This document shows, in pieces, positions 34,200 through 63,192 of a stretch of 64,000 nt of DNA. The position numbers and the translations under genes were made by a program. The notes under the pieces are model-generated. The model was not told the DNA's origin, did no database searches, and saw only the letters and a program-made list of their open reading frames with translations. Source of the stretch: Cinnamomum chago. Its lineage: Eukaryota > Streptophyta > Magnoliopsida > Laurales > Lauraceae. The stretch spans positions 68,143,501 through 68,207,500 of the forward strand of contig CP142452.1 of assembly GCA_038049695.1 (NCBI GenBank), in the 5' to 3' direction. Position 1 is the stretch's first letter. Each line of letters opens with the position of its first letter.

Positions 34200-34209
34200 T
34201 GAGAGGGGG
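34200..34209 (+). other. Polypurine tract of the Copia element
   Basis: The purine run TGAGAGGGGG lies directly before the 3' LTR, in the place where plus-strand synthesis is primed. Confidence 0.85.
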
Positions 34210-34464
34210 TGTAAAGATACAGGTCAGCTCAACCCATGAATTGGGTCAGCCCACAACCCACAAATCAAATCTTTGTATGAGTTGTAAACAGATACTAGTT
34301 GCCCTAACAATATCTGTAATTATGTAATTAGAATCTCTAATCTAGGAAACACTGTGTTATATATTGCTTCATCGTCAATACAAGAAATACAATTTTCTCT
34401 TGCAAACTATCTCTCTCTTGCATGCTCCTAGTTAAGCTTCTAGTTTGGTTATGATCATCTCACA
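34210..34464 (+). repeat. 3' LTR of the Copia element
   Basis: 255 bp, matching the 5' LTR, then AAAAT at 34,465-34,469 as the right target duplication. Confidence 0.95.
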
Positions 34465-34804: not shown

Positions 34805-34946
34805 TCATTGAGAAAAAAATGTGAGCAATTCACGACGGAACTGTGGGATTGGATGCCCCAACCTTAACTGAATGCTCACACCATTTACACGAGCAGCAGC
34901 CTGCAAAATCAATGCTTCTGCTTCTTTTGCCACCTCCATAGCATCC
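34805..34946 (-). CDS. MTPC1: MTPC1-like terminal exon with stop
   Basis: 142 bp, from the acceptor ATCAAAAG|GGATGC. It encodes [20 protein letters not shown], then [15 protein letters not shown] and a short tail, and ends in TGA. The last intron is only 114 bp (34,947-35,060), in sharp contrast to the upstream ones. Confidence 0.9.
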
Positions 34947-37900: not shown

Positions 37901-40900
37901 TAATACCCCATGAGATGAAAAAAGGCACGGTTCATTTAAATGTCTTGGATTGTTGGATCATGCATTTAACTTTTTGGATGCTGACTGAGCCCACGGCACT
38001 TCGACACACTTCTTGGGAGTCCTAGGATTAAATGGGCCTCAAAAAATAGTCCCATATATTTATTAATTCGATTGTTAGGGACTTATTTTTTTACTATTCA
38101 GTCAGCCACATCGAGGTTCTATGCAAATCCCAGCAGGTTAGTAAGTCAACGGGTCATAATCTAACCTGAATGTGACATGGCTTAGCCCAGAAAACAGTTC
38201 AGACATAGAAGTTTAGTGGATTCATTCAACTGAGCCTTAATGGCCCCAAACCCATGAAACAACCAATCCCTTGGGTTGCCCAAGGGTGGCCTTGAATCTG
38301 GTGGGCCCAACCGGGACATCAGGTGGGCCATGTGGGTTCCACAGTCCCACAAACTTTAGAGAACTTTTTGAGTCTGGTTATGGCCAAAAACTTCTGCTTT
38401 CATCTTTTATCTAATATTAAAATTCAAATAAGACTCCTTTAAATTCAAATAGGACTTCAGAGGATATGCTTATCTAAGAGAGAAATCAGTGGATTTGTTA
38501 GGGTCCTTTTGAGCTTAAAAAAAGAATAAAAGTGGGATGATCCCACTCTCTTTGTACGTTTCTGCCTTTTGGTAACAATACAACCACCTAGTGGCCAATC
38601 ACAAGTTTGCCTTTTTTAATGTCTTTCTTAATTTGGGAACTTTATAATTTTGTGAGATTGAAGATTGAAAGTTGAATATGAATTGATATCCATCTTACTG
38701 TGATTTAGAATTGCATAGTTTGAGGGCCCAGATCGCGGTCCATCCTTTTTGTGGGCTGATCTACATCAACCACCCTGTTGCGATGAAAACAGGTCAGATT
38801 TGGGCTAGGTCCATAGTATACCCAAGCCCAAACGAAAATTACTAATAGGGGACCAACCCAAACAACTAATAAGGAACATGCACCCACACACTTGTCTGAC
38901 TCAACCCCAAGTTACCGAACCTGTACCCATACTCAAATTTGTAGTCAAATACTCAAATTATGCAACCAAATTTTCATCTAATTCTGTTAGGCTTTCATGC
39001 CAGCCAATTCAAAGTTTAAGTTTCCCAAGGTTTAGGTATGGTGATGCAAGACAGACCATGGTCCCACAGGTCAACCAGCCAATGGGCCCAGCCCATTCAT
39101 TTTATGTTATTTTTATATTATTTAGAGTTTAAATTATGTTTTAAGTTATTTTTAGTTGGATGTTTATGGTCCACATTAGTTCTAGGGTTATTTATTTTCC
39201 TATATAATGAAGTAAAGCATTCTGGCTTAGATAATGGCTATTGATAATGATATTGAGTTTTTTTAAGTTCTCCTTTGAGTTCTTCCCAAGTACTCTTCGA
39301 GATCTTATGCCTCCTAGATTGGAGTTTGACGCGAGGCCAATGTTCAAATAACCCCTGATTTCCCCTATTTCTTCTATCTCTATCCTGCCCGCACCACATC
39401 TCCCCTCCATTCCGCGTTATTTTGTATCAAAGCTGAAAATTGATCCGCCCAGATTCAGAAATCAACACTCCATCATCCTGGCCCTAGATCCCGACTTCTA
39501 CACCATCAAAACCCGAAACCCAAAATTTCCCCCAAAATCGCAGCCATCTTGTTCGATCCCAACCCTGCTAAACCCTAAATCCTGTCTCAAATCACCACCG
39601 CCACCCACAGACCTCTCTGGAACCCAAATCCACAACCACCGAATCTCCAAATCACCAAATTTGTGTGGTTGTACATCAAATCCCCCCCAATAGACTTGAT
39701 CGACATACTCAAATCCTCCATACATCACCCAAAAAAAAAATCATCTTTTGGACCAACCCAAAATCCAAAACACGCTAATCGATCATCCCTCTCCCAAAAT
39801 CCAAGTAGGCGAATGGCCCATCCCTAAATCCCATTGATCGACCACGATCCATCCAAAAGCCATACCCTGAATCCCTAAAATTTCCAAAATCGGAGACTCA
39901 AACCTTAATTCCCCAAATCTAGCAACAGCACCACCGTCGCCCATCAACCCCTTCGACATCGCCGTCGCAACCCCAGCCGCAATAGCTTCACCTTCTTTCT
40001 CATCGAAGGAGCACCAGCTCCTTCTCCACCTTCACATCCTTCTCCTTAGCCGAGTGCAAGCCAAGTCAAAATCAAGAAAAGGAGGGGTTCTCGATTCCTT
40101 TTCGTATTTGTTGAGTCAACTTGACGTAGAGCCTTGAACATGTCTCCTGTGACACGAGTCAAGCCCAGAAGTTGGGCCTGAGCTAAGATCCAACAAAAAA
40201 CAGTACCATCTGAATAGGAAAAAAAACCCACTGGCATCAGTTCGGTAGACAGCAACATCAATACCAGAACGTTAGTCAGATCGGCGGCTAGAGATTGCTT
40301 TCTTGTTACAGACCCATTTAAAGTCCGATCAATGATCTGTCTTCACCTGGATACTCACATCAATCACATCTGCACATCAGGTCAGTTTCATTTTGGAGAG
40401 CATTACATTTTCAGTCTTCACATCCACGTCAACATGGAATTGCAAGATTTTGCACTGTAAAACTCTAATAACTTCGACGATCAACTTCAAAGATTTAAAT
40501 ATGCAATTAAATATGGGTAGTGATACTATGAATATGAGGCCTACTTTGAGCAGTATCTTAATCTGAGACAAGGAAAATTGACCGTGGATGAGTATGCCGA
40601 TGAAATTGATAGGCTGCACTGTTTATGTAAACCGGAGAGCAAAACACATGACTGTGAACGCTTTCTCCAAGGTTTGCAACCGAGCATATTGAAGAATAAG
40701 AAAGACCGCAAAGATATGCATGAAGCATATTAGGAAGCAATTCGTGTTGAGCAATTGATAAAACATTATTGCATCCAAAAAGTTATTTGCAAGAAGGAAA
40801 ATCAAAACAAACAACAAAAGCCAATGTTGTGGAGCCCAATGCAGAGCATGTCAAGGCAGATATTGATGAACAAAAGCAAGAAACAGTCGATTCCACAATA

Positions 40901-43900
40901 AATTTAGATGAAGTGACAGACAAATCCACCCCCCCCCCCCGCCCCCCCCAACCAAAAAAAAAAAAGGATTCTAGTTCAGATGAATTGGAAATAAAAGAGA
41001 CCAAGTCTCCTTTTGGCAGTGTTGATCAGTCAAACACAGGTAACAGAAGATTTTGTGACATCCTCGGATCAAGTAGCATGCTTTCTTGCAAGAGATCATA
41101 CTTCAGGAAATCTAGGAGACAAAGTGACTAACGGCATTGACCAAAAGATGCAAGCAACAAAGAAAATTGAAGACTTGGATATGGTTAGCAAGCAAATTGA
41201 AAATCTGATGGATATGAACGTAGAACCACCGCCAGAAAAGTCAATTCAATCATCAGAAGAGAAAGATATTGTTCAAGAAGTTGTGAACAAAGATCAAATA
41301 TTGAGGTTCCCGCATTGATTTCATCTTCAGGAATAGACCATTAATGCTTGAAGATTTTAAGCAGCTGATATAAATCCAAGACTAGAAGCATTTATTCATT
41401 TGAGTGCACATCTGATCCATGTACTTTATATTTGGAGATCAACAATGGAAACTTGAAAAGTGCGTTCAGCTTTGACAGATTCAATAGTTGCAGCATCGAA
41501 AGGGTCGATCGTGCATCAAAACGCAATTAAGCCATCAAAAGATGTGACATGTCAAGCCAACTTTGAATTAGAAAAAGAGGTCGTATGACGCTTCCACGCC
41601 ATGCAAAGAAAATGGAGATCGACCAACAAATCAAAAGTTCATATGCTCAATCTTTGACCCAGAAGTAGTTCTACAGAACTCGAGATCAAGTTGTCTCCAA
41701 GACGAGGAGAAGTTGATGCAAGACAGACCCATGGTCCCCATGGGTTGACTAGCCAATGGGCCCAGCCCATCTATCTCGACCAAGCCTTTGGGCCCAGCTC
41801 ATTCATTTTATCTTATTTTTATATTTTTTAGAGTTTAAAGTATACTTTAAGTTATTTTTAGTTGGATGTTTTAATCATAGCCATCAATATGTTTGGATGG
41901 TCCACATTAGTTATAGGGTTATTTCTTTTCCTATCTAATGATGTAAAGCCTCTTGGCTTAGATAATGGCTATTGATAAGAGGTTTTTTTTTTTTTTTTAA
42001 TAACTCCTTTGAGTTTTTCCCAAGTACTCTTTGAGATCTTTGGCCTCCTGGTTTGGAGTTTGGCGCGAGGTCAATGTTCACGTAACCCTTGATTTCCCCA
42101 ATCTCTGACCGCTCCCATCTCCCTCCATTCCACATTATTTGAGAAATGGACGACACCAGAGAGGAGAGGAAAGGTCCCACAACAAAACCTAAACATACTC
42201 TGAAGTTCATAAGATAGTTAAAAAAAACACGAGGCTTTCAACTCTTTCAAAAAAAACAAATAGTTCCTCAAAAGGTACATTCCATGGTTTGAAATGAGTG
42301 CACAGAGATCATTGTAAGACACTACATTTAAAGTGTCACCTACCGTAACAAAAGAATCAAACCTGAGAGTAAATAAAAGGTTACAAAAAGGTTCCATAAC
42401 CCCTTGTGACAATCACACCCTTCAATTTGCAAATATTACCAAAATGCAACTTGGTCCTGATTTCCCAGTAGACATCATCAGAGCTCAGCTTAAATTCTCC
42501 AACAGGAGAAGACCATCACAGCCAATGAGGAATAAAATATACTAGCCCTCACTTTGAGGTAATGCCACCACCCACTTCAAATGCTCCAAAATACTGGATC
42601 TTTACACTATTACTCCTCGGATCAAGTAGCCTATGAAGATGTGTTAAAGAGCCACATAAACCATTTAAGCATGTCCAAACTCCAAAGTACTAGATCTTTG
42701 CGTTTCTTCCCAATTGTTTGATGTGTGAACTATTACAGTAACAAGAAAACTGTGTTTTCCCTTCCACTGAATATTAGAAGAGCGCTATTACTCTTTGACA
42801 TTGCAAAAGCAACTTTATAAAAAAATATCGATCCATTATTTCCTAATAACCAAGTATAAAATAATGAATATGTAATACTAAAGAGATGGGTCCTCATGGT
42901 CCATGACACTAACTATTACAAGAAGGTACCTTTCAGAAGTATGCCCCTCTTTGTTAACAAAGCCTTCAAAAATAACAAAATATAACAGAGATTGTTTGGT
43001 GGAAACATTTTTGTGGGGCACACCTGGATAATCCAATCACATAGGCATAGAAATGAGTCGTAGGTGGATTAGGGGGCAGGGGCATCCCAAAAATCACTCT
43101 AAATAGATCATCATAACCATTGGCTTTAGAGTCTAACATTTTAATGGTTTTGTAAGTGCATTTTTTCTTGTGATTAAACCCAACAATGGATGCATCGGTG
43201 TCAAAGTTGAAAGGAATGCCAATTCAAGGAGGTAGGTGTGACTGGGACGGTTTGCATTGATCCAGGTGGGCTCCATTGTATTGTAGAGAATAAGAATGGA
43301 GTCGCTTGTTTTCAGGTTTTTGGAGTTTTTTATTGTGAGCGCGCATGTGCGTTTGTGTGGAAATTGTAACATCTTACTTCAAGTTTTTTGGAGTTTATGA
43401 CAAGATTACGTACCTCAATGTGCACATCAAGATACAGATATGACCCAGCCCTTCTTCCCCTGAGGCGATGACATCCCTACAACATATTAGTGACATACTT
43501 TTATCCAATGATCAAAGATAACAAAAATGTTTACCAATAAAACATCTGGGAATTTGAATATATATATACAGAGAGTTTTCTAAAAAAAGGCCCCTAAATT
43601 TTGTGAAACCTCATAAAAGCACCTAAGTTGTGTGTTTTTACTGAAACCTCCCTTGACTGATGGTCAAAGTTAATAAAAGCAACCATTGTCATTTCCTCTC
43701 AATTTTTTTTTCCTTTTGACCTTTTTACCCCTTTTAAAAGTTAGAAAGACAAAACTCTACTCTCATTTTCCTTTGATTTTCCATCCTCTCCTTCATCTTT
43801 ACTACTTTTAAGCAGAAGAGCCATCCCTGTAAACCTTAGCATTAACAACCCTTGTTGTACTCCTGCCTGACAACTTCCACAATATATAGGACATTTATTT

Positions 43901-46900
43901 TATCATTTTTTCCTTTCAGATTTTGAGAGTTAGTTTTGTTGGAACTTGGGTACATTGTAGCTTTTACCATCAATTCTCATAGATCTTTCACTACTTTTTT
44001 TTTTTGTTGAACAAAGGCTGATTATTTAATAACAAGATATAAACAGATTCTAGCTTATGTTTCTCATTCTGCCGACGCATAAGCAAAAGCCACTGCCCGA
44101 GATCCACCTAACTTGGCCGTGATACCAACCATGGCCAAGAAATCATGAGGGAGATGGGAAGAGGGACTATTGATAAGGTGGTTGCAAGGGGTGGGAAGGA
44201 TGGGATGGATGTCAGGGTTTAGTGCCTAGGAATCCAAGGATTTTTTTTCACTCTCAGTTTGCCTTTATACCTGAAGAAAACAAGAACCCATTTCTCTAGG
44301 AAGTACTAGAATACATACACTTTGTTACTCACCTATCAAATTTTTCGACTTGCTTATAAAGATTTTCACAACTAGAAGACTAGCCAGGATGTTATTAGAA
44401 AGTTGGGAAAACAAGGAAGTTGTTCACCAAAGATTTTCTAGGTGACGACCCATCTTCATTCATCATATGTATGTATAGTATTTTATCATTACCTGAGTTA
44501 CAAAAATATAAAATTGCAATAGGATCCTCCAAGCATTCTTTTTTAGAAGCATTCTGCCTGCCATCTTTTCTCTTTCTATTTTTTTTTCATTTAGAAGGGC
44601 TGGGTACATCTTTGATGATGCCTGATGAGATGGATCGTAGATGTCTTTCCATCTTTTTCTCCTATGATCAAGTGGGATGACTTGGATATATCCTTGACTC
44701 CATGCAATGAGATGGGCAATGAGTAGGATATATATATACATATGCAGAGGATTTTTCTCCATTTGTTTGCCAACGTCTGAGTGGGATGAGCTGGGCATCT
44801 CTGTGTCTGGAACAAGTTGTGTTGGATTGAACATTGACCACAGGTGGCAGAGGATTTCTTTCCTTTTGTTTGCCAACTCCAAAGTGAGATGAGCCGGGCA
44901 TCTCGTGTATATTGAGCGTGATGTGCTGGAATGATTATGATGGATTGTGTTATGCTCTAGGTCGGCTAGGATGAGCTGGGCTAGGTGAGATTGAGTTGGG
45001 AGGTTAACGGAGGAAATTTAATAGCTTACACCCTATGACTTGAAGAAGAAAGCCCATGATCCATTTTCTCACATGGTTGTTACCTTGTCACAATGAAGGA
45101 GGCTAGTGGCAAATATGTCTTACTGCCTTAAAAGGAACGGATAAAATGGTCAAAAAGACAAAGGTAGAGAGGGAAAGTGGCAGAAGTTGCTTTTCCTAAC
45201 CTTAACCATCAGTCAAGGGGGATTTTAGTAAAAGTCCAAAATATAGGAGCTTTTTTGAGGTTTCGCAAAAACACGGTGGCCTTTTTGTAAAAAGCTCATA
45301 TATATAGCCTACAGTGGCAATCATTATCACAAACCAATGGTACAAAAAAGAATGCATGATAAGCCAACATAATCTAAAACCTGTCCACAGTTTTACATGC
45401 CACCAACATGTGGTGAACAACAATATATAAAGTAAACCAACCTCCTGATAACATGTAATCCAATTTCCGAGAAGCTATCAGTTATTCTATGTATAAGCAT
45501 TATCAGGCCAGCATAGAACAACATTAGGCATTGTAAACTGGATATACTCAATATGAATGCAAAACAACAAAAAGAAGACTGCAATGCCAAGTATAGTCTC
45601 AATCAATCAAATTGATAAACCAACTACAGTGAACTCACAGCAATGATGATCGATGAAAGTAAAAGCAACACCATTAAGCATTATAAACGGGATTGCAATA
45701 TGCATAACTACTCTTTTGTACAGAAAAGGCTACACAGTATGAATGCAACCACAATGAAAAGAAGACTTAAAACTTACCAATGTACAGCACTAATCAAATT
45801 GATCAACTAACCCCAGCAGTCCCACAGGACACGGTAATGATGAAGGTAAATTAGGTTAAAACCAATATTACCGTGCTTAAAACCATGAAAAAAGATCCAA
45901 GCTTAAGCATATGCCTCAACCGTTAGAAGGAAAAACTGCCTCAATAGAGGATTGTTCAAGTGCATTGCAGATACAGTGTATTAAAGACAGTAAAAAAAAC
46001 CAGACATGCTGGTCTACTAGCTTTTTTTATGATTGTGTGTCCTGAATGCAAATTCCAGTCCCAAAACAAATAAGGTTGTCGATCTAAATAAAAAAATGAC
46101 AAAATGTTCTAAATTACAGCCATAGAATTCTTAATATAAATTAAACCAACCATACTACCCTTCAACTTAAGTTGTTTCTTGTTAATTTAAAAGAACTAAA
46201 GCAAAATTCAGCTAGGCCTGGAAGTCTTGGCCTATACAGCTGTGCATCCGACCATACGGTCTTGTAGCGCCAAACACGTAGACCATAGGTTCGCAGCTGC
46301 AGTCGACCCTGAAAACAGTTATGACGCGGCACCAAGTCGCGGCTTGCGGTCCATCACGGTGCAAATTTGTATTTTACCCCAAAAAAAATTTCAAAAAATC
46401 CAGAATATTATTAAATACCAGAATACAATGTTTTTTTCCCATTAGTAAACATTTTAAATCAAAAAATCGGCCCCCCTGAGTCATAACATCATGTATCACT
46501 GTCTTATCTTAAACTTGTAAAGTCTATTCTAAATAAAATAGATTTACATGTATATATTAAAATAAGTTAAAAACTGAAATATCACAAATTTTACAGTATG
46601 CATTGCAACCATAATTGTGTACTAACCATTAGCATTAGACACATAAAGTAAAGAAACTAGTAGTAGTAATAATTAAACACTCAATTACTCAATCACCAAA
46701 TAAGTTGAGAGTGAGTTTTTACAAGTACATCAAAATGAATTAATTAATTAAAACAGCGGAGTATGGAATAGGGGTATTGTGGTTTAGGAGGAAAGAAGTC
46801 TTCATATGAGAATCCACCAAAATCTTGCAAATCAATTAACTTTCGGTGAAAAAAAGAGGCTTGGGAAGCTCTAACACAATCTCAAGAAGCTCCACAAAAG

Positions 46901-49900: not shown

Positions 49901-52900
49901 ATTTCATCTTGACCATTGGATGTTCCCACAGTCCTACTACCACGTACTCAAGACACCGAGGTGTTGACCTACAGTTGGCCTCACCCATTGGTGACTCAAA
50001 GCAAATGAATAGACAGAAACTTGAGTTCATCAATGTCTCAGGATTGAGAGCCTATTGCTAGGGAATTATGAGAGCAGACCTTAAAATCGAGACAATATTC
50101 CATAAGGTACTTCTCATGGTCCTTCAATACATCTAATGTACCAGCACTGTGATCCAGAATCTTACATTCTGATGATCGAGGCAAATCACACTATCTCATA
50201 GTGATCAAAGTGCTGCAACCTTATCAGATGAGATGCCCAACCTTATCAGATGAGATGCGAAGATATTTAAGTATAAGATTTGTGACACATGTCTCCCGTA
50301 TGTGGATCTCATCCATATACATATATCACATCTAATATACTAATAGGACCCGATTCATCTCATGAACCATCATGTCATATGTATTGGTCACGTGCATTAA
50401 GTAATAAAACATCACTCATCACATGAAAGGAAAGCATGATTTTATTGATAAATAAAGAAATTAATCAATTTATTACATCATCTGATGGATTGAGTCCATA
50501 CAATTTAACAAATAGTGCCTCTGATGGCTTAGAGCTATCCACGACATGAAATTCTACATCATGTGTGGACTATGTCATTTGCAGCTGACTAAGCTTCTCA
50601 CAGTAAAATGCAACCACTCTTCCCTCATGACTCGGTACAATCCCGATGCCCACATAACGCATCACAATTAACTTGGAATCCCTCAAAATCTGGCAATGTG
50701 AGAATAGGGGTTTCAATCAACTTCTTAACTACATCAAAGCTTCTCTAATAAACAACAACAAAGCTGAAATGATAGCAATGTTCGATGGTTGCCTGAACTT
50801 CTTGAGATGGGAGTCATTGACATGCAATAGAAGAGGGAAATCTTAGTGAGCAATTGACAAGAGCCCATAGCAGAGTGAAGCTGCTCATAATTTCAACCAT
50901 GAGGTTCTGGGTTCAAAAAAAGAAAAAATTACTGTACAATTCAATGGGCCTATCTTAGTGCTGATTTTTCATGGGAGTTTGCCAATATAATTGAGGAGAT
51001 TTGGGATATTGCATCTTGTGGTCAATTTTCCTTTCATCATATTATCATTTGGCCAATCAAATGGGCCCATGGTATGGTGTGTGGGTTTTTCCCCTTTTTT
51101 CTTAATGGTGAACAAATTTTATTGCTAAAACCACAACTGTAAAAAAACATGGGAGAAATCAAAGATGTGGTTTCCTCTTGTCGTTGTTCTAGTTTTTAAT
51201 GAAATTTATGTTAAATCTCCAAAAAGAAAAATAAGAAACCAAAAGACCATGAAGAGAATTATTATAATTGTCTGTATCTAGCATACATATAGAAAGAAAA
51301 GAAAATTGCATAAAACCATCCAGATATAGAGAATTATATTAAAAAATTATTCCACAAGCTGAGTACTGAATGGATTAAGCATAACTTCACGTTGCCATCT
51401 TAAGACGTAGAATATTCATCTGCCCATATGACAAAGCATAACCCTAAGTAATATAAATCCAATTGAAAGATTCAAAAATAAAAACAGGAATGCTGTCATG
51501 GTGTAACAGGCAGTGGAACCACAATAAAGTCCAATAAAATAAAGTAAAACTCATCTTTCAAGTTCTGGATATGGATTCAAAGCTTGCCTTGACGCCTTCA
51601 ACTTGGAGAATTGTTGCTTTAATCGGAGCTAAAACATGCAATGGAACAGCAGCATCCACCAATTCCATGACACTAAAAGCCAAATCACAGGAAATGTTAA
51701 ATGAAAGAAAACAATCAGTTTCAAATTAAACTCTTTCTCGACTTTGAATTTGCCATACCAATATTAAGAACATGTATGAAAATATAAATGATCCAAAGAT
51801 TACAAATCTCATTAATTAAGGCCCTCCAATGATGACAAAGCCTTTATTTTTCATAGGAAATTCGGTAATTCAGTTCTATACAGAAGAAACTGATACAAAC
51901 AACCGCCAAAGTAATCCTCATTGCAACTTGTATTACCTTGCTTCCATAAAACCATTGCAAACAACATAGAAACATCCAAACTTTAGCAAGATTAAGGTAT
52001 TCCAATGATGACAAAGCCTTTGTTTTTAATAGGGAATTCTAGAATTCATTTTGATGCAAAAGAAATTGACACAATCAACCTCCAAAATAATCCCCATTAA
52101 AATTTCTATTACCTTGTAAATATAAATTCAAGTGTAAGTACTTTGATGACCTGGGCCCACTATCCACTTGATATTGTCCGCTTTGACTGAAGTCTCACGG
52201 CTTTAAAATGCGTCATGTGGGGTTAAGGTCAGGCCACACATATATGCCCAGGGTCAAGACTTAGAATGTTTCCGACATGGGACTAAGTATAATCCAAAAC
52301 CCCCCAGGAGACAAGCAAGCAAACAAGACAAGCAAGCCAAGGCAAGTAGGATCTCACACTCTCCCTCACCAGAAACCGAGTTGTCTTCAGCTTTGACACC
52401 ATTATGTGACGACTCAGACTCATTATCCACATGATATCCGCTTTGACCGAAGTCTCACGGCTTTAAAATGCGTCATGTGGGGTTACAGTCGGGGCGCACA
52501 TATATGCCCAGGGTAAGGACTTCAATGTTTTCGAAATAGGATTTAATGTAGTCCAAAATTCCAAATCCCCTTAGGGAACAAGAAAGCAAACGATTAAATT
52601 TAGTGTCGCTCTCTTCCACAGCGGCTGCTACGGTCCGCTATCGAGTGTGACTGATAGCTACTTTCCAAAGATTTTTTAAATACATAGTAAGCCTTATTTC
52701 TTTCCTTTTCTCTCCAAACAACATTTTTACGCAACTCTTCTACCCTTGTATACTTCAAAGAAGACCAGAATACATAGGATCTCACTGAATTGAAGTTATT
52801 GAACTCCTAAGTCCTAACTCTTAAGTCTGGAGTCTTGACTTCAAGCTCGGTACATTGTTTATTTTTATGGTGTTTCTTCATGACATGGTTTTTCTTAATA

Positions 52901-55900
52901 AACCTTTCATTAGTTTCTAAGTTATCGTAACTAAACAACATGAATACAAGTGAGGACCTCATGCAATGAGGGGGCCGCTACACCCCCGTATCTTAGTTAC
53001 TTTTGTAAGAAAAACACATATTCTATCATTTTCCAATATTTTGGATTTTCTGGAAATTTCTCAAAAAAATTTTTATGACTTTTTCAAATCCAACCGCTAT
53101 GCTGCTAAGTAGCACCATGATAAGTCCTTAAAATTGTGCGTTTTTCATCATTAATTTCTAGATAATTAAGGACTTAATCATCCAATCATGCTTTATTTCA
53201 TTGGAAAATCATGATTTTGTGCTTCCAAGTCAAAATTCTTTGAAAAACCACATTTACATAAAATCATTAAAATTTCTATCTTTAGCATGAAAGGTCGCAA
53301 GTCTCTCATAACTTTTGATCCACACATGAAATGAAAAAATTGCTTTTCACCATTGATTTAATTAAAGAAAAATAGATAAAATGGTGACATGACATCTATT
53401 GCATTCATTTAGTGTGAATTAGAACCACATTTTGCATTGTCCAATTCCTACATGAAATGATAATTTCCTTAGTTATTGTTTTATTTTTGTAGGGATTTCC
53501 AGAAATTGGGGACCCACCACCTTGGGTGTGAATCCCAAGGTGGAGGGACAGCCATGGTGGACCCCATACATGTTGCAAATTTTCAGAATTTCCACTCTTG
53601 TTTGAAAACTCCTTGAAATTTAAAATTTAAATCAAAGGCCAAGAAAGGAAGGAGATCAAGAGACTTGATGGCCAAGACTTCAAAAGAAGGAACGAGGGAG
53701 AAAGTTTCTTGCACAACTATTCCTATTTTTCTCAGGGGCAGCTAACTTAAAACAGTCATAACTTTCAAATCACGTGTCGGATCGAAGCAATCTACCCACC
53801 GTTGGAAAGCTCTTTTCGAATAGATATCCACAGATCCCAAGATTGCGTAGATTGAAGATGTATCGAGGGAGATATGACCTCGGGAAGTTGACTGCTGCAA
53901 TTTTAGGCGGGACAACACTAAAATTTGCAAGAAATCCTAATTCCATGTGGGCCCCACATGTGCTCTGTAATACCTGGGCCAGATTAGGCCCAGATTTGTC
54001 TGACCCATAAGTTACTGGGTTGGGTTGGGTTGTCTTAACCTGTTCCTAAACCATTTTGGCCCATAGGTGTTGTTAATTGTTAGAACGGTATTCCTGAAGG
54101 AGAGGAATAGCTATCTCTGAACTGGGGGGGGGGGGTGGGTTCCAACGAATCAAATTTGGGGTTATTCCCATATGGCCTCTTCTTCTCTCTTATTAGTTCC
54201 CATATTGATCTCCATGGTTTGTATCTGGTTTCCAAAGAAGAAGGTAGCAGGGTGGAGAAAGAGAGATCTCCTCTGAAGATCAACAGAGATCAACCAGACT
54301 TGTGGGAAGGAGGAAGAAGCCGGAAGGCCTAGTGGATGCAGCACTCGAGATCCCACATCAATCGTGCCACGATCTGCTACACTAGGAGGTGAGTGATCTT
54401 TCCAAGTACATAGATCTGTAGATTCTTGGGTATACTGTGTTTATATGATTCCTGAATATAACCCAACAGGGGGAAACCAGGATCAAAACTTGATTACTGA
54501 CATATCTTGGAAATTCCTTTGGGGTTAGCCCAAGGTCTGTAATCCCTCAATTTAATCAGTAATAGATTATGGATGTCTGTTTAATGCTGGATGTGAGGTG
54601 TAAGGGTATACAGGTATTGATTTGATAAGGAAGAAGAGAATGGATGAGAAACGCAAGCCAGAGGCTTGGTTTCCAGCCCCATCGACAAATACAAGATCTG
54701 TCGATGTGGGTACTGTGATCAGGGGGCCCACCCATTCAAGCATCACACCCAGGGATCTAATAGTAGACCCCTGGGCGACCATTGCCTAGATGGACCCTTG
54801 TGGAGATGGGTCCCACTTGGGCCACAATTGTTTCCAAAGAATGGCATAACATCCAGTCTGGGCGTTGGACGTCTGTAGGCAGAACTGGTAGTGGGACCAT
54901 GGGGCCCACTATATCATCCATCTGACCCAGGGATCTGGTAGGGGACCCCTGGGCGACCATTGCCTAGATGGACCCATCCAGGATGGGTCCCATCTGACCA
55001 CACATCTTCTTCCCAAAGTCTCTGCAGCGTCACTGTTGGGGAATTTCTGGGTTTTTCCATGACTGGATTGTGGGGCCCACTGGCCCACCTGATCAAGGAT
55101 CAGGACTGACCAAATTGAAGGTCTCACTTGGGCGACCAAGGTGGGCCAGGTCCTAGGGGAGTTGAACCATTCAAGGGCCCACCATCTGATCAGCCCCTTT
55201 TCCCTGTTATATGAACTATATATGACTGTTAAATTACTGTAACAAGTTCTGAGAGTCTTGGTACAATTGTAGGGTGATATGTAGAGAGGAGGAACTTATC
55301 CTGGGTGGAGCCCAGCTTTGGGAAACAATGTATGAAGCATAGAATTCATAGGAAATAAGGGAAACAGTGCCAAGCCAAACAAGATTCTAATTAAGAATGA
55401 TTAGGAGATACCAGACCCACCAGTGGATTGGATGGAAGATCAGGACCAGTCAATTTGTTGATCCTTAGTGGATGATCAGGATGGTCCTGTACCCTTGATG
55501 AGTGGATCACTAGGGGCCCACTGGTCAATGTTTCCTTAAGCCTTGGGCGTGAGATCCATTATAGTCAAGTAACAACAGTAACCTGGTGGCAGTCACTGGG
55601 AGTAGGTACTGTTACTATTGATTATATATATATATATATCAAGTCCTTCTCAGCCATTGATTACACTAGAAGTGGTAAACAAACTGTTCATAGCAGTGGT
55701 GTATTTTAGAGTGGCTTGAATAACTATATATTTTAAGATTTATATCCACATAAATATTTGATATTATTGACATGATGTTGGTAATTCAGAATCATATGGT
55801 TGATCTTAGATTGAGTCTCCAAGCCATTGGGAAAACCTTAAAATAAATAATGATTCACATATATGAGGAGACAGGTACTAGAACACAGAATACATGATAT

Positions 55901-58900
55901 AAGAATAGTACTACAACAATGGGTACCAGATGTTGAATCTAAGTGGGGCATGTATATGTCTAAACCCAATCATGTGGAACTAGTCTTATATTAATATAAT
56001 TGGTGTGTAATTCCTTGATGATGTTACTGAGTGCATAATAAATATACACTAATTAATGAATCTTGCATCTGAGAATGTTAGTTATGGATTTATATGAAAC
56101 AGTGACACCTTATTGAAATAACAAAAAGGAGCCTTACTCCTGAGTTTTATTGAATTGAACATTGAACCCTGGCGGGTTAGGAGGAATAAGGTTGGACTGG
56201 GACTGAAATACCATTTGCGCAATGGACTCCATTACTGGGAGTTTTTGAATGTATTATATAAGAACTTCCTCCCCGGAAGGGACTGAAGTACTGAAACTCT
56301 GTGGTTAGAGTTCGATTATAAGAACCCAGAATTTGGGAATCACAGAACCTATCAAAGTTACAGACTGATTCTGTACCCTCATTAATTAACCAAAAAGGAC
56401 CATTTATGAAATCCATTATTATATTGTGAATGCTTCCGCACTTTTGTCAATTCATTATTTTATAAATGAACTGTGTATGAGGTAATATTACTCACCAGAC
56501 TTCTAATAAGTGGTTTGCCCCACTTCAGGTATGCATCATTTGGGGGAGCTTGGCAACGGGGAAAATCAGTCATTGGACTTCAATATGCGTGGCTGATAAG
56601 AGAGCGTCACAATGGAACTGAAATAGATACTAGCATTACTTCTTTAAATAAATGTTGATTTAGGAATTGACTGGCAGACTTATTGATGTTTCTTTTCTAA
56701 TTAATTTGATTCCTCAAATAAATAATTTCTTGCTCAGCTCCTTGTCTTAATTTGATTTATGAGGTAACATGGATTCCTTATAGTAAGGCCCTGGATCCTG
56801 ATGAGCTCCGGGATTCGGGGTGTTACATGCTCTAAAGATGTGCAACGAATTTGAAATTAAGATTTTGGAAAATTTTCAAATCCAAGGAGGCCCAAGTGAA
56901 GAAAGTTGCAAGATATGAAGAATTCCAAGTTTAGAAGTCTCTTTCTTTTCTTTTTCTTTTTTTGGTGAAGTAGAAGTCTCTTAGTGGCAAGTAACTCTAG
57001 TTGGAAACTAATCCAAAGGGCCCAACATGGAATATCTTGGAAGCCAAGGAATCTAGATTAGCAACAAAATCAAAATTCAAATCGTTGCTAAGGAAGATAG
57101 AGATCAACTCAAATTGGGAAACAAGAATCCAAGAAGGGGAGGAAATCATGGCAAGAGTGGCCAAGCCACATTATAAATAGAGAAGATCCCCCTCCGGACA
57201 TTCATCCCTAGAGCACTTTACAAGAAGTCCAACCAGCCCCTCTCCTTTCTTCTTCTTCCCCAACTTCTTCTTTCCCCATTCTTTTTATTCTTTTTATGGT
57301 ATGACGCGGGCCATGTCCGGGTAATTGTTTTGCTGAAGGAGAGTTTGTAAAGATGATGTTCTTAATGATAAATCAAGTTGTTCTCTTTGCAATAGGCAGC
57401 TTTAGAGCTACGGAAGAAGCTAAGTGAATTCCTCTTTAATTATGAAGTAGTTCTTTCTTGTTTCCATATTATTTGTGCTTATTGTTTTAATAGACTTGTC
57501 TTCGTACCCTAGGTGAGCTTCGGTTCTTAATTTCTTAAAATAAAAAGGGCTTTTAACTATTTATTATTAGATTTGATAGGCCATGCTTAGGATCTAAGTC
57601 TTTTGATGGTTTATGCTTATCTTTGATAAGTAGTGCTTGAGATGTTTTTATGCTTTTTGAAGTGAAGGAAGACATAGGTTTTTGAATTTTATGGAAAAAA
57701 AGGATTTTAAAAGAAAAATCTCCCAAATCAAAACATTGATCTGTATTTGATTTGAGTATTGATTGGGACAAGTTAGGATTATTTTATAAATAAATTGGTT
57801 AAAACCTGGTGGATTCTGGATGCTCTAATCGCTTTTCTTATTTGTTATTTCTCACCTTTTAATTAGTTGTTTGATTTTATTCTTAGATCCATTCAAAAAT
57901 TTAATTGAATGTTAGTTTAGTAATTAGATCTCATATTTGAGAGTTCTCTTATTTGGTTCCTTACGGGTTCGACTCGTACTTGCCACTGTCTCTTCTATAG
58001 ACAGTTGTGCACTTGCGGTATAAGTATTGTAAATCTACATCACACCGCTACATAGCGTTTCAACGACAGGCCACTGCGCCCGCCACTACCGCTATTTTCA
58101 TCATTGGTTAACACAACTCAACACTACCTCTATGACGAACTGATGTTCAATCAACGTCATGGAAAAAGAGACGACAAAGGACCTATGGGAGAAGCTCTTG
58201 AAGCTTTACATGGGTAAGAATCTAACCAATAAGTTTCATTTTAAGAAGCAATTATATGGGTTGAAGATGGAGGAAGAATATGATGTGTTGGAACACAAGA
58301 ACACTTTCAACGGGATTTTCAATGACTTGTTGAGGCTCGATGTTAAATTCGGTGATGAAGACAAGTCCTTGTTGTCCTTGAATTTGCTTCCCGACTCATA
58401 TGACGATTTTTTGACTACCCTACTATATGGAAAAGAGACTCAAATTTGAGGAAGTTATGCAGGATATCATCTCAAATGCTACAAGAAGGAAGCCTACTAA
58501 AGACGATTCACATGCAAAGGGGCTCCTAGCAAAGGAAGGCTCTCATAATCGTGGTGGGTCTAAGGAAACAGGTAGATCAAGAAGAAACAACTCTTAAATC
58601 AAAAAGAAAGATTCAAAATGCTTTCATTGCGGAAAGTAAGGACACTGGAAGAGAGATTGTTGGAAGTACAAGGCGAATAAAGATAGGAAGACGAGTAAAG
58701 CTGGGAACAAAGCTGAAAACAGTGACCCCGCCAGCGTTGATTCAGAAAGAGAAGGGAATCTCATATCTGTCTCACAAGGTAACCACTAATCTAATGTGTG
58801 GATTTTATATTCAAGTTGATCTTATCATATGTGTCCTAATCGTGATTGGTTTGGTACCCATGAATCATGTAACGGTTCTAATGGGAAATGATGCACCATG

Positions 58901-61900
58901 TAAGATCATTGGAATAGGCACCATTAAGATTAAAATGGCAGATGGAGTTGTGAGAACCTTGGGTTGTGTGAGAAATGTGCCAGCACTCAAAAAGAATTTA
59001 ATCTCTTTAGGCACAATAGAATTTTAAAAAATGCTCATTTATTGCAAAGGATGGTGCACTTAAAATGACTAAAGGAGTTTTGGTACTAATGAAGGGTACC
59101 AGAGTGGGTAACAACCTTTACAAACTCATGGCAGAGACAATTTTAGGTGGAGTGGCAATGTCCACGAAAGACAAAACCAACAAAGATGAGTCTCAATTGT
59201 GGCATCTGCGTCTAGGGCATATGAGTGAAAAGGGCACGTTAAAACTTCACAAGAGACAGTTGTTAAATGAGGTGAAAACATGCAAGCTGGATTTTTTAAA
59301 ATACTGCGTTTTTGGCAAACTAAAAAAAGGTGTCTTTTAAAATTGCAAAAATTAATTGTAGAAGTGAAGGTATTTCAGATTATGTTCACTTATATGTATG
59401 GGGACAAGCCCCGGTTAAGTCAAAAGGTGGAGCATATTACTTAGTGACTTTCAATGATGACTTTTCAAAAAAGGTTTGGATTTACTTCATGAAAGAAAAA
59501 TCTGACGTCTTCACTAAGTTCAGAGAGTGGAAGGTAGTAATTGAAAACTAAATAGAAAGAAAAGTCAAACACCCAAGAACAAATAATGGAGGTGAATATA
59601 GAAATGGCAGATTTCTACAATTTTGCAAGGATGAAGGCATGAAAAGGCATTTCACTGTTCCCAGTGAAGAGCGATCCATGTCTATCCAAGTCACTCAAAT
59701 GCATATTTCTCGGGTTTAAAAAAGGTGTAAAGGGGTACAAGCTATGGGATCCAGAAAACTGGAAAAATATTTGTATCAAAGATGTAGTGTTAGATGAATT
59801 TTCTATGCTGAACAGGGAACATGATGGTGAAGTCAAAGGGCACAGTGCTGAGAAAGTAGTTACTGAAGTAGTTCCTCTTACAAAGAACACAACCAAGAAA
59901 CAAACACAAAGCCAATAAGAGGCAAGCACATCTGGAGGAGAGGAACAACATGAGGCTCAGCAGGAACCCACAAGTCTAGCACAAGGAAGAGCAAAGAGAA
60001 CCATCAGGCCACCTCAAAGGTTTGGATGGGATGAGGATGAAGTGCATTTTGCTCTCATCACTCGTAGTGATGGTTCAACCACATTTCAAGAAGCTATGAA
60101 AAACAGTGAAAGAGAAGGTTGGATGGGTGCTACAATGGATGAAATGGTATCTTACCAAAAGAACTCAGTTTGGGAATTAGTTTCAAAACCCAAAGACAGA
60201 AAAACAGTTGGCTACAAATGGGTGTTCAAAAAAACGGAAGTATTGCAAAAAAAAAAAAAGTTCAAGGCACATCTATTAGCAAAGGTTCAAGGCACGTCTA
60301 TTAGCAAAAGGTTACTCATAGAAAGAAGGGGTTTACTATGACAAGATATTCTCCCCAGTTGTGAAACTTACATCTATAGGGTGTTATTGCGATTGGTAGC
60401 ACAGTTCGACATGAAGTTTGAACAATTAGAAGTAAAGACAACCTTCCTTCATGGTGACTTGGAGGAAATAATCTAGATGGAACAACCTGAAGGATTTACA
60501 GAAGACAGAAAAGAAGACTGTGTGTGTGTACATTGAATTAATCACTGTATGGGCTGAAACAATCTCCAAGACAATAGTATAAGCACTTCAATTCCTACAT
60601 GTTGCAAATTTACTACAATCGATGTATGACTATCGTGTTTATTTTAAAGTACTAGATGATAATTCCCTTATTATTTTACTACTTCATGTGGATGATTTGC
60701 TCATTGCATGTAAGGACATGTCAAAAGTAGAAGAACTCAATCTCAATTAAGAAAGGAGTTTGACATGAAAGACCTTGGGGCAGCAACAAAAATGTTGGGC
60801 ATGAAAATTACAAGGGGCAAAAAGGCTGGAAGGTTGTGGTTATCACGGAAGTACATCTCAAAGGTACTTGAGAAGTTCAAAATGCAAAATGTCAAACATG
60901 TATCTACTCCACTTGCAAGTCACTTCAGCTTTTGTGCCAGACAATGTCCTACTACAGAAGAGGAAATTGACGAAGTGTCTAAAATATCGTATGCTAATGC
61001 GGTGGGATGTCTAATGTATGCCATGGTTTGTACAAGACAGGATATTGCTCAAGCAATTGGTGTAGTAAATACATGGTGAATCCATCGAAAGCGCATTGGA
61101 ATGCCGTAAAGTGGATTTTGAGATACTTGAAGGGCACCAAAGCCTTGGGAATAATTTTTGAAAGAAAACAGGGTCAGAAAGTGTAGTTGGATATGTAGAT
61201 TCTGATTTTGCAGGAAATCTAGACAAGAGAAGATCCACTATAGGCTATATTTATGTGCTTGCTAGCGGACCGATAAGCCAGAGATCGGTGCTTCAGTCTA
61301 CATCTGCACTTTCCACTACAGAGGATACATGGCAGTTACAAAGGCTTCTAAGGAAGCAATCTGATTGAGCTATTTGGTAAATGAAATGGGAATTAAGCAA
61401 GAATCAATCTCGCTACACTCTGACAGTCAGAGTACAATATGCTTGTCAAAGAATCAGGTAGATCATGCGAGGACAAAACACATACTGCAATATATCACAG
61501 AAGTTGAGATTGAGTTGCTACTGGTGAGATCTCCATTCAAAAGATTCTCACAGATGAGAATGCAACTAATATGCTTACCAAGCCAGTCGCTACAGAGAAG
61601 TTCAGGCATTGCCCGGACTTGCTCAATCTTTCCTCTAGTTAGAGATTGCAGGTGCACCTCATCTTCATTGACATGCAAATATGGTGAGAGGGTGTTCCCA
61701 CAAGGTGCATGCGTTATAAACACATAACAGCAATTCTTCAAAGGGTCGGACATTTTTCACCAAGGTGGAGATTGTTGAATTTGGCTCAAAAGGTCCTTAT
61801 TGAACCTTATTGGGTAGTTTTAATGGGGCCCACTTTGTTAGGGCAAGTCTCTTATATATTCTCTTAGGGTTATTCTTCTTTGTGAGAACAAGAAGGGGAC

Positions 61901-63192
61901 AAACAGAGAGAACTTCTTGTGTGGTGCATGATTGTTGATTGCATTTTTTGCCCTAAAAGTTCTAACACAATTGTGACCAAGAGCTACTATGGGAGACTAA
62001 ATTTATCCCTATTTCTATTTTCATTCAGTTTGAGACTATTTCTAATTTTTATTCATTGTTTGAATAGGATTAGCTAGTTTCCTATTTTAATTAGAAAGTC
62101 TTGTTTGCTAAAGAACGATTCACTCCACTATATATAGATGAGTACCTCTTGTAATTGCTTATGCTACTTTCAATTAATCAAAGAATTATCTGAGTTTTCT
62201 TCAATGATGGTGTGTTTTATGTTCTTAAGTATGCCCGAGTGCTAGAATCCATCTTTGGATTCGATCAATCCCTTAGGAGATAGGTCTATTTTTCCAATCA
62301 AGGATCCAAGGCTGTGCCACACATACAACTGACACTATTTCAAAGTAATATATTGTACTGAGAAGAAGAAAACATTGCTTATCAACAAACAAGTATCGTG
62401 ACCAATGATGAAAATAGCGGTAGCGGCGGGCGTAGCAGCCCGTCACCAAAACGCTACGAAGCGTGCGATACGTAGCGTAGCGGGGATACGTAGCGGCGTA
62501 GCGGTGCGATTTAAAAAAATCGCCAAAAAAATCTGAAAAAAAATCCAGAAAATCCAGAAAATTGTAAAATGAAAGAAAATGTATTTTTTTTTGCAAAAGT
62601 AACTAAGGTAAGGGGGCGTAGCGGTCCCCTCACTGTATGAGGTCTTGTATCGCTGTATAAATAGAAAATAATAGTAATGATCATTTTTTTCACATGTGTT
62701 CATGTTGCTTAGATATACTAACTTAGAAACTAATGAAAGGCTTATAAAAGAAAAAATTATGTCATGAAGTCAAGACTTAAGAGTACTTAGAGAAAAAAAT
62801 ACATCTACCAAAGGGGGTGTCAAATAGGATGTACTTAGAGAAGAATCATTGAGAAGAACTCTCCATATCGACTATAATTCGGCGAGATCATATGCTTTTT
62901 AGTGTTCTTTTAAACATAAAAGGGTAGAAGAGTTGTGTAGAAATGTTATTTGGAGAGAAGAAGAAAAGAAATAAATCTTATTATGCATTTAAAAAAAAAA
63001 AATTGGAAAGTAGGAATTTTTCCCACCCCGTAGCGGCCGCTACGTAGATTTTCATCCATGATCGTGACAGTATAACAAGGCATAATAAAAATCACCTCTG
63101 GTACCCAGTTTCAACTCCAGCTTTCAGAATCATGCCTGAAACAAGAAGTCCAGCAAGAGGATCCAGAAATTGTACTCCAAGAATAGCACCTC
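34805..63192 (-). CDS. MTPC1: Cation diffusion facilitator, metal tolerance protein C1 (MTP6) type; C-terminal half
   Basis: Seven exons on the minus strand join in phase: 63,192-63,096; 51,672-51,588; 43,476-43,414; 37,651-37,546; 36,312-36,167; 35,152-35,061; 34,946-34,805. They give 242 residues plus stop. The order is a last membrane helix ([18 protein letters not shown]), then [10 protein letters not shown], then the cytoplasmic dimerisation domain with [34 protein letters not shown] and EVFIHIDPE, then a plant MTPC1-type extension ending [12 protein letters not shown]. The text matches what I know of Arabidopsis MTPC1 (MTP6). Family members are divalent-metal/proton antiporters; the MTP6 branch is usually linked to Fe/Mn/Zn. 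The N-terminal half, with most helices and the metal site, lies beyond the right edge. The introns total over 27 kb and are full of transposons. No stop or frame break was found in the exons. Confidence 0.9.
35061..35152 (-). CDS. MTPC1: MTPC1-like exon, C-terminal extension part 2
   Basis: 92 bp, from TATTCCAG|AAAATG to ATTCG|GTAATA. It encodes [20 protein letters not shown]... to PPDMTI plus two bases of an arginine codon. Confidence 0.88.
35153..36166 (-). other. MTPC1-like intron (1,014 bp)
   Basis: GT-AG. It contains AAATAAATAAATAAAT at about 35,388-35,404, repeated 'tgggcc/ggccca' words at 35,570-35,850, and a candidate hAT-like MITE at 35,874-36,062. No other gene. Confidence 0.8.
35874..36062. 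mobile_element. Candidate hAT-like MITE
   Basis: The left end CAGTGGCGGACCC and the complement of the right end, CAGGGGCGTACCC, match at 11 of 13 bases. 'CAGGGGCGGA' ends are widespread in small plant hAT-type elements. No 8-bp target duplication is evident, so old age or imprecise ends are likely. It is 189 bp and non-coding. Confidence 0.55.
36167..36312 (-). CDS. MTPC1: MTPC1-like exon, C-terminal extension part 1
   Basis: 146 bp, from TTTTGTAG|ATCCTG to TACGAG|GTAACG. It encodes (D)[15 protein letters not shown]... to [13 protein letters not shown]. Its [12 protein letters not shown] text parallels the ATVSDIFSS region of the Arabidopsis protein as I recall it. Confidence 0.88.
36800..37262 (+). 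other. Plastid-derived DNA (NUPT): trnK-UUU 5' exon and start of its intron
   Basis: From about 36,840 the text follows plastid trnK: the 5' exon, the group II intron start GTGCGAC, then CCATACCATTGGTAGAG, GACCACGACTGATCCTGAAA, ACAGCATGTCG, TTGGAAAGGGGTCAAATC and GATTACCCGATCTAATTAGA, on to GTGCCTGATGTGGGAAAGGG near 37,250. This lies inside an intron of the MTPC1-like gene (36,313-37,545), so it is a nuclear insertion of plastid DNA and not plastid sequence itself. The left edge, probably in the psbA-trnK spacer, is approximate. It stays close to plastid sequence from memory, suggesting moderate age. Confidence 0.85.
36853..36889 (+). pseudogene. trnK-UUU: trnK-UUU 5' exon fragment, non-functional
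   Basis: The 37 bases GGGTTAGCAACTCAAC...CTCGGCTTTTAA correspond to the first half of plastid lysine tRNA, ending in the UUU anticodon loop before the group II intron. The D-stem start is altered (plastid copies usually read GGGTTGCTAACTC), and the 3' exon is absent here. It cannot make a tRNA in this place. Confidence 0.85.
37546..37651 (-). CDS. MTPC1: MTPC1-like exon, [14 protein letters not shown] segment
   Basis: 106 bp, from the acceptor CCTTGCAG|GTAGAT to the donor CATTG|GTAAAT. It encodes [20 protein letters not shown]... to EVFIHI and the first base of an aspartate codon. Confidence 0.92.
37652..43413 (-). other. MTPC1-like intron (5.8 kb) with gag-only LTR element
   Basis: GT-AG intron. 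Outside the LTR element at 39,042-42,139 it holds 'ggccca'-rich non-coding DNA (38,200-39,040) and AT-rich DNA (42,140-43,410). Nothing else is recognisable. Confidence 0.7.
39042..42139 (+). mobile_element. Non-autonomous gag-bearing LTR retrotransposon, broken
   Basis: Two related ends begin TGATGCAAGACAGACC at 39,042 (to about 39,420) and at 41,714 (to about 42,139). They share GTTATTTTTAGTTGGATGTT and CTTAGATAATGGCTATTGAT. A decayed methionine-tRNA-like primer site (TTTGTATCAAAGC) follows the first, and a purine-rich GACGAGGAGAAG precedes the second. Between them, about 40,530-41,330 resembles a Gypsy-type gag ([20 protein letters not shown]). No protease, integrase or reverse transcriptase was seen. 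The LTRs differ clearly, including an insertion in the right one, so the element is old. No target duplication found. Confidence 0.75.
43414..43476 (-). CDS. MTPC1: MTPC1-like exon, GCHRLRGRR segment
   Basis: A 63-bp exon of exactly 21 codons ([20 protein letters not shown] then E). The acceptor is TTGTAG|GGATGT and the donor GAG|GTACGT. Both junctions are phase 0. Confidence 0.92.
43571..45297. mobile_element. Non-autonomous Mutator-like element with long TIRs
   Basis: The first roughly 120 bp (GAGAGTTTTC..., with GTGAAACCTCA and CCCTTGACTGATGGTCAA) recur inverted at the right end (GAGCTTTTTAC..., with GCGAAACCTCA and CCCTTGACTGATGGTTAA). Long TIRs point to a Mutator-type DNA transposon. 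The flanks ATATATACA and ATATATATA would be a 9-bp target duplication with one mismatch, though they lie in TA-rich DNA. Inside are non-coding sequence and diverged roughly 100-bp tandem units around 44,640-44,910 (GAGTGGGATGAGCTGGGCAT and AAGTGAGATGAGCCGGGCAT). No transposase. Confidence 0.75.
46200..47240. repeat. Repeat-rich block with ACCGTTAT / GTTATATTGAAAATAAC units
   Basis: From about 46,970 to 47,215 units containing GTTATATTGAAAATAAC and GGCC-TAGGCCGTTACC-TTTCATAA recur with about 70-90 bp spacing and are partly palindromic. The left part (46,200-46,360) is GC-rich. An AT-rich part with AAAAAATCCAGAA words follows, recalling the layout of the hAT-like family at 62,403. It may be a related or older DNA transposon, but I could not find matching ends. 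Confidence 0.5.
47280..48730 (-). mobile_element. Ty3/Gypsy pol fossil (RNase H end to integrase)
   Basis: Reading the minus strand from 48,700 gives RNase H/linker text ([18 protein letters not shown]) and then integrase parts: [12 protein letters not shown] near 48,240, and [15 protein letters not shown] near 47,960. A GPYKV-type C-terminal end lies near 47,500. The order and wording are those of chromovirus-like Gypsy elements. It has many breaks and no LTRs of its own were recognised. An old fossil in antisense to nothing; it reads in the same direction as the host gene. Confidence 0.75.
48797..50510 (-). mobile_element. Solo LTR, 1.7 kb, with 5-bp target duplication
   Basis: On the minus strand the block starts TGTTAAATTGTATGG and ends CTACTTCCAACA. 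It is flanked by AATAG on both sides (48,792-48,796 and 50,511-50,515), a perfect 5-bp duplication. A TATA-like ACTATAAAAGGG near 49,295 supports minus orientation. No internal retrotransposon sequence lies between the ends, so it is best read as a solo LTR left by recombination. Probably Copia by general style, but the family is not certain. Confidence 0.8.
51588..51672 (-). CDS. MTPC1: MTPC1-like exon with GC donor
   Basis: 85 bp encoding (S)[28 protein letters not shown]. The acceptor is CTTTTAG|TGTC. The only end that keeps the family sequence VEGVK-GCHRLRG is AAG|GCAAGC. This is a good GC-AG donor; no GT lies in a suitable place before the frame closes. Confidence 0.9.
52132..52600. repeat. 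Direct repeat pair, about 260-bp period
   Basis: Two copies share TCTCACGGCTTTAAAATGCG, TCATGTGGGGTTA and CACATATATGCCCAGGGT; matching points lie at 52,181 and 52,441. Words of this kind recur between genes in many plant genomes, possibly as parts of small LTR elements, but I see no LTR pair here. Confidence 0.7.
52610..53117 (-). mobile_element. hAT-like element copy 2, left part
   Basis: Inverse-orientation relative of the element at 62,403-63,060. Shared text includes TTATTTCTTTC, CTCTCCAAA-AACATTT, GCAACTCTTCTACCC, CCTCA--CAATGAGGG--CCGCTAC and CTTAGTTACTTTTG. It stops at 53,117, where a solo LTR begins, and resumes at 58,043. The outer end near 52,610 is decayed. Confidence 0.75.
53966..56827 (+). 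mobile_element. Inner solo LTR, 2.86 kb, Gypsy (Tekay-like)
   Basis: Starts TGTAATACCTGGGCC and ends GGATTCGGGGTGTTACA, with complementary tips. It is flanked by perfect TGCTC duplications (53,961-53,965; 56,828-56,832). The length and the 'GGGGTGTTACA' end suit Tekay/Del-type chromoviruses, which is inference. The flanks join into continuous outer-LTR sequence. It carries a diverged tandem array inside. No internal coding region. Confidence 0.8.
54721..55190 (+). repeat. Diverged tandem array, about 178-bp unit, in the inner LTR
   Basis: CCCAGGGATCT then CCCTGGGCGACCATTGCCTA, followed by a GATGGACCC-rich part, occurs near 54,748 and 54,926. A third, weaker unit starting GGGGCCCACT lies near 55,073. 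Each unit starts with GGGGCCCA-like text. Confidence 0.75.
58043..58106 (-). mobile_element. hAT-like element copy 2, right part
   Basis: CACCGCTACATAGCG..., then CCACTACCGCTATTTTCATC, matches the complement of the start of the 62,403 element (CAATGATGAAAATAGCGG). It finishes the copy interrupted at 53,117. Together the two parts make about 570 bp, close to the 658 bp of the uninterrupted copy. Confidence 0.75.
58145..61967 (+). mobile_element. Truncated Copia retrotransposon (Tnt1/Tork-like), broken
   Basis: Starts inside gag ([20 protein letters not shown] near 58,190). It continues with a zinc-knuckle region near 58,610-58,665, protease near 58,780-59,020, [12 protein letters not shown] near 59,200, integrase pieces at 59,350-59,720, reverse transcriptase from 60,100 to 60,800 ([22 protein letters not shown]) and RNase H to about 61,600. 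A GGTGGAGAT purine tract precedes a 3' LTR of about 195 bp at 61,773-61,967. The 5' LTR and 5' gag are missing. It has many breaks. It lies antisense to the MTPC1-like gene within its largest intron and is older than the element at 29,237. Confidence 0.85.
61968..62402. other. LTR-like remnant or unclassified DNA
   Basis: Contains CACTATATATAGATGAGTAC near 62,130, a TATA-type promoter core of the kind seen in LTRs, and no coding frame. It could belong to an LTR whose partner is lost, but ends and target duplication are not visible. It ends in ATCGTGAC, the left target copy of the next element. Confidence 0.4.
62403..63060. mobile_element. Non-autonomous hAT-type element, complete
   Basis: 658 bp between perfect 8-bp duplications ATCGTGAC (62,395-62,402 and 63,061-63,068), the size expected for hAT. 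The ends CAATGATGAAAAT and, on the complement, CATGGATGAAAAT match at 11 of 13 bases. Subterminal DNA is packed with GTAGCGG / CGCTACG words in both orientations (about ten between 62,415 and 62,515), as hAT elements use for transposase binding. The interior is AT-rich without coding. It ends 35 bp from an MTPC1-like exon. Confidence 0.85.
63096..63192 (-). CDS. MTPC1: MTPC1-like exon: last transmembrane helix
   Basis: 97 bp encoding [18 protein letters not shown]... through ETGYQ (the first glycine codon starts in the upstream exon). The acceptor is CTGTCTGTAG|GA and the donor CAGAG|GTGATT. It ends two bases into a serine codon completed by the next exon (AG|T). A hAT-like element ends 35 bp from this donor in the intron. 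Confidence 0.9.

Follow-up and report, generated by a model that had tools for sequence, protein, structure and literature searches.

A single-copy, apparently intact CDF/MTP metal transporter gene, most likely of the MTP6 type, with transposon-laden introns in Cinnamomum chago

Results and discussion

The window that we analysed, a stretch of 64,000 nucleotides (C2:68143501-68207500) of the Cinnamomum chago genome (1.06 Gb, 14 contigs), holds what appears to be the 3' half of an intact nuclear CDF/MTP gene, present once in this assembly and most likely of the MTP6 (MTPC1) type. We give this reading a probability of roughly 88%. Repeated transposon insertion, some of it old and some recent, would have made the introns grow while the coding frame and the splice signals were retained, and the gene would be expressed in the ordinary way, with about 53 kb being transcribed, followed by the splicing out of 11 introns (10 GT-AG and one GC-AG). 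Transcription, splicing, function, the subgroup and the mitochondrial location are what we infer from the DNA.

Exons, introns and reading frame

The original prediction had proposed that seven exons join in frame to a 731-bp coding tail spread over 28 kb, and this was exact: exons 6 to 12, read on the minus strand from 63192 to 34805, sum to 731 bp in frame and end in a TGA stop codon. This tail is only the 3' half of a gene of 12 exons. The exons lie at 63192-63096 (exon 6, 97 bp, encoding the end of the membrane domain), 51672-51588 (exon 7, 85 bp), 43476-43414 and 37651-37546 (exons 8 and 9, 63 and 106 bp, both from the dimerisation region, ZT_dimer), 36312-36167 and 35152-35061 (exons 10 and 11, 146 and 92 bp, both from a C-terminal extension) and 34946-34805 (exon 12, 142 bp including the stop). 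Four of the seven (97, 85, 63 and 92 bp), rather than the three first counted, fall between 63 and 97 bp. The six introns between them measure, in order, 11423, 8111, 5762, 1233, 1014 and 114 bp, and so the predicted range of 114 bp to 11.4 kb held.

A match to the Cation_efflux domain 23 kb beyond the window prompted a search of the next 40 kb, in which five upstream exons were located, all outside the window and also on the minus strand: 87581-87261, 85922-85853, 84038-83941, 83722-83571 and 82906-82791 for exons 1 to 5 (positions above 64000 extend the window numbering). A reading of the seven exons as a stand-alone 3' fragment was thus ruled out, the five further exons lying upstream past an intron of 19.6 kb. 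The full gene has 12 exons with matching phases and a coding sequence of 1488 bp, which encodes 495 residues with no internal stop. It spans 52,777 bp, and introns make up 97.2% of this length (51,289 bp in 11 introns, with a mean of about 4.7 kb), and the longest intron, between exons 5 and 6, has 19,598 bp and falls nearly entirely outside the window. It is because transposons fill its introns that a gene with some 1.5 kb of coding sequence occupies about 53 kb.

Splice dinucleotides are present at all 11 introns, ten being GT-AG and one, intron 7, GC-AG (donor AAG/GCAAGC, the slash marking the end of exon 7). The junction of exons 7 and 8, which this intron separates, is gap-free in alignments to two bacterial relatives (L033 and L034). 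GC-AG introns form a major non-canonical class that makes up less than 1% in model organisms, according to an excerpt of PMC7072748, and a single one is therefore unremarkable. Four of the 11 donors fit the consensus at only five of eight positions (the GC donor at six of eight), and the pyrimidine runs of several acceptors are short; these weak signals, together with a Copia element 341 bp past the stop codon (see below), are points against retained function, or at least call for caution.

Protein family and copy number

The encoded protein identifies the gene as a CDF/MTP-family metal transporter, with Pfam support far beyond chance, and on this point the original prediction of a metal-transporter tail is borne out. 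In a Pfam scan of the full-gene protein, Cation_efflux (PF01545) matched over profile positions 2-198 of 198 (E 2.6e-43) and ZT_dimer (PF16916) over positions 7-78 of 78 (E 1.4e-27), and the TIGR01297 model of the CDF superfamily matched with an E-value of 1.7e-79; the best relatives in the PDB are FieF pumps. The membrane domain reaches to residue 290 and the dimerisation domain covers residues 300-372, with exon 6 starting at residue 253. The metal-site motif of CDF proteins is HxxxD in helices 2 and 5, and such motifs are found here as HSISD (residues 102-106) and HHRAD (237-241), assigned to these helices by their position in the domain. HxxxD occurs twice more, at 190 and 332, in positions that are not usual for the motif.

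When bacterial and archaeal proteins were compared, the best relative in the collection was 36% identical over residues 76-464, and 71 of the 80 kept loci matched at 1e-5. Exons 2-9 were covered in 68-71 of the 80 loci, exon 10 in 26, exon 11 in three, and exons 1 and 12 in one each. The C-terminal extension is thus rare, yet not restricted to plants.

As to the subgroup, the gene most likely belongs to MTP6, which we take to be the same as Arabidopsis MTPC1, and it would accordingly move a divalent metal at the mitochondrial membrane. Cucumber MTP6 reportedly acts in mitochondria, and the first 30 residues of the protein found here, with four arginines and no aspartate or glutamate, are compatible in composition with a targeting peptide. 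The two domains and the two HxxxD metal-site motifs are shared with plant CDF/MTP proteins of the Fe/Zn group (MTP6/MTP7). So is the exon number, 12, which the name MTPC1 would fit: peanut Zn/Fe-CDF genes have 12-13 exons, except for two of seven, in the excerpted text of PMC9011049. This resemblance to most of the peanut genes suggests the MTP6/MTP7 group and does not separate MTP6 from MTP7. What differs from the plant genes of this group is the length of 52.8 kb, reached here through transposon insertion.

The gene is single-copy in this assembly. A protein search of the whole 1.06-Gb genome gave 16 matches, 12 of which are the 12 exons themselves, all at C2:68178308-68231081, while the other four are weak (E 0.017-0.297) and fall at places that also have CDF-family matches. 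A second intact copy, which the original prediction had named as the finding that would count against it, was thereby ruled out in the assembly, the next-best match having an E-value of 0.017. On contig C5, three CDF matches of equal score occur exactly 19,360 bp apart (at 11937978, 11957338 and 11976698), with one TAA inside each, and would represent either a tandem array that arose recently or an assembly repeat. As an observation on the assembly itself, contigs C13 (707,525 bp) and C14 (152,753 bp) are small beside six others of 56-134 Mb; their sizes are those commonly seen in the mitochondrial and plastid genomes of plants.

Transposons within the introns

We scanned 20 chosen open frames within the gene against Pfam, 19 of them of at least 80 amino acids, compared with 102 frames of that length that the gene contains. 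Twelve of the 20 matched at E 0.001 or better, with one RVT_2 and one Chromo match falling under Pfam's own cut-off. The predicted antisense Copia element was confirmed as a plus-strand remnant in the 11.4-kb intron 6 (58144-61076), with pieces of Retrotran_gag_2, Pol_BBD, gag_pre-integrs and RVT_2. It is broken into several frames, and the best-scoring other copy in the genome is 80% identical to it, by which measure the remnant is old.

Two further elements are of the LTR type, with TG...CA ends and exact 5-bp duplications at their flanks. The first, 2.86 kb long and also in intron 6 (53966-56827, TGCTC on both sides), has best other copies that are 98% identical. Copies also occur at C7:28018047 and C7:28025748. 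As these two lie on one strand and 7.7 kb apart, as the two LTRs of one element would, we read the intronic copy as a solo LTR. The second, of 1.71 kb, is in intron 7 (48797-50510, AATAG on both sides) and has at least 39 long copies that are 86-92% identical, with no paired copies among the matches listed; it, too, is probably a solo LTR.

Intron 7 also contains a retrotransposon piece with an Integrase_H2C2 match on the minus strand, that of the gene (48337-48495), and a fold-back repeat with arms of 171 nt that are 71% complementary (43563-45306), while intron 8 holds a member of a repeat family of about 3 kb with degenerate direct terminal repeats (77%; 39077-42140). A hAT-related piece at 62407-63036 ends about 60 bp inside the donor of exon 6, in intron 6, and a second piece of the same family lies further along that intron (52635-53111). 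The part at 62407-62782 is 84% identical, in inverted orientation, to 75416-75771, the end of a hAT element in intron 5. The introns in the window thus hold about eight supported elements (the Copia remnant, two of LTR type, the integrase piece, two hAT-related pieces, the 3-kb repeat family and the fold-back repeat); the original prediction of at least ten, of five kinds, is thereby borne out in part.

The hAT element of intron 5 (70464-75775, L009/L010) is antisense to the gene, contains BED, DUF659 and hAT dimerisation domains with an open frame of 557 residues, and has CATGGGA on both sides. It is 97.5-98.3% identical to the three copies with which it was compared, and its first open frame has at least 39 further matches in the genome at 95-99% (40 of 684 candidates scored), which shows that the family moved recently. 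In the same intron there are LINE-type pieces (RVT_1 and zf-RVT), again antisense, and a piece of Gypsy type, recognised by SH3_Tf2-1 and, weakly, by Chromo. Overall, Copia, LINE, hAT and one Gypsy piece are antisense and one integrase piece is sense, numbers that are too small for a test of orientation bias.

Repeats as young as these can collapse or be mis-joined in assembly, and one may ask whether the great intron lengths stem from such a mis-join or from another assembly artefact. We consider this very improbable. The 104 kb that we read contain no N, the exons are ordered on one strand with matching phases, and three of the intronic insertions carry matching short duplications on both sides.

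Possible signs of decay and of retained function

A second broken Copia element (29237-34464, plus strand) converges on the gene from its 3' side, with its near end 341 bp beyond the stop codon. It contains pieces of gag_pre-integrs, Pol_BBD, rve and RVT_2, and its LTRs of 255 bp are identical at 246 of 255 positions (96.5%), with AAAAT on both sides. The 505 bases that follow the stop codon yielded no AATAAA-type signal apart from one AATATA, which is inside this element. Elsewhere in the window, an open frame of 319 residues at 23466-24422 (plus strand) starts with a match (E 2e-13) to PF22992, the fourth zinc finger in BIRD-IDD transcription factors, and is, to judge by this match, part of a neighbouring gene, and a tandem duplication of 181 bp, 96% matching, occupies 63659-64000 and reaches the window's end.

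An open frame alone is not proof of use, and recent silencing could go along with the youngest insertions. One may consider a dying gene, whose transcription has been silenced, or whose transcript is truncated, by recent insertions within the introns or beyond the stop codon, with the frame still open only because this happened recently. The Copia element next to the stop codon, with its 96.5% identical LTRs, would fit such a scenario, as would the hAT copy in the 19.6-kb intron, given its near-identity to the three compared copies and first-frame matches of up to 99% among the matches listed. Nevertheless, one would then have to explain why the 495 codons contain no stop although the Copia in intron 6 is old and broken, and no second genomic copy was found that could take over. 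We therefore regard a dying gene as quite unlikely, and the combination of an uninterrupted frame, an old broken remnant within an intron and the lack of a second copy would argue for retained function.

Length of the gene in context

To judge the length of the gene, we used loci of three other families in the same genome as yardsticks (gyrA-like, SecA and valS), plus other CDF loci; as the matches are partial, every span is a minimum. Two gyrA-like loci extend over no less than 29.0 and 23.5 kb and one SecA locus over no less than 33.2 kb, a second SecA-like locus reaches at least 9.9 kb and a valS locus at least 6.6 kb (five of 52 candidates scored), whereas three other multi-exon CDF loci cover approximately 2.2, 3.1 and 8.2 kb in the matches seen. 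The gyrA-like loci, at C1:107.17-107.20 Mb and C8:9.21-9.24 Mb, have a parallel exon order and are both stretched over 23-29 kb. At 52.8 kb, the transporter gene is longer than all eight yardstick loci but similar in order of magnitude to the longest of them. The suggestion that its size is exceptional for this genome was therefore rejected, the two gyrA-like loci and one SecA locus reaching at least 23-33 kb, and the oddity that the original prediction implied was overstated, also because long introns filled with transposons have been published.

In Chloranthus spicatus, 876 of 2184 orthologues are longer than 20 kb, long introns bear transposons, and mean intron lengths are given as approximately 1.66 kb for Lauraceae, 2.87 kb for Magnoliaceae and 3.35 kb for Chloranthus (both from extracts of PMC8626473). 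As in the long magnoliid and Chloranthales genes described in those extracts, the exon structure of the gene studied here is kept despite long, transposon-laden introns; unlike that account of Chloranthus long genes, ours concerns one gene, in which hAT and LINE elements contribute besides LTR elements. The gene is thus a long but ordinary example, at the upper end of a known phenomenon.

Transcription through the introns

In rice, heterochromatin lies within the introns of more than 10% of genes, and loss of OsIBM2 leads to premature polyadenylation in such introns; in Arabidopsis and rice alike, factors of the IBM2 type prevent early polyadenylation in heterochromatic introns (both from the excerpted text of PMC7145194). 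The gene described here resembles the IBM2-regulated genes of that excerpt in its long, transposon-laden introns, a likeness drawn from its sequence. One might accordingly suppose that transcripts often end within these introns, so that a short N-terminal product is made besides the full protein, and the premature polyadenylation that follows IBM2 loss in the two species (PMC7145194, in the part available) would lend this some credence. A product that stops before exon 6 would, in contrast, be missing the last part of the membrane domain as well as the whole dimerisation domain. Frequent early ends thus seem doubtful to us, although somewhat less so than a dying gene; they are compatible with an intact, functional transporter gene, and both can hold together.

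The locus opens no new question, and its practical use would be in testing gene predictors and transcription through transposon-filled introns. For the intact gene that we favour, we also infer that anti-silencing factors of the IBM2 kind may help transcription to cross the introns. It is a speculative extension, which we hold to be improbable, that full-length output depends on such factors, because transcription of the only copy has to pass some 44 kb of intron, mostly rich in transposons, before exon 8, where most of the dimerisation domain begins; in that case mitochondrial metal balance would come under epigenetic control in this plant. What the gene offers is a fully delimited single-copy case, in which the frame would have stayed intact while 97% of the gene's length became introns with old and young transposons.
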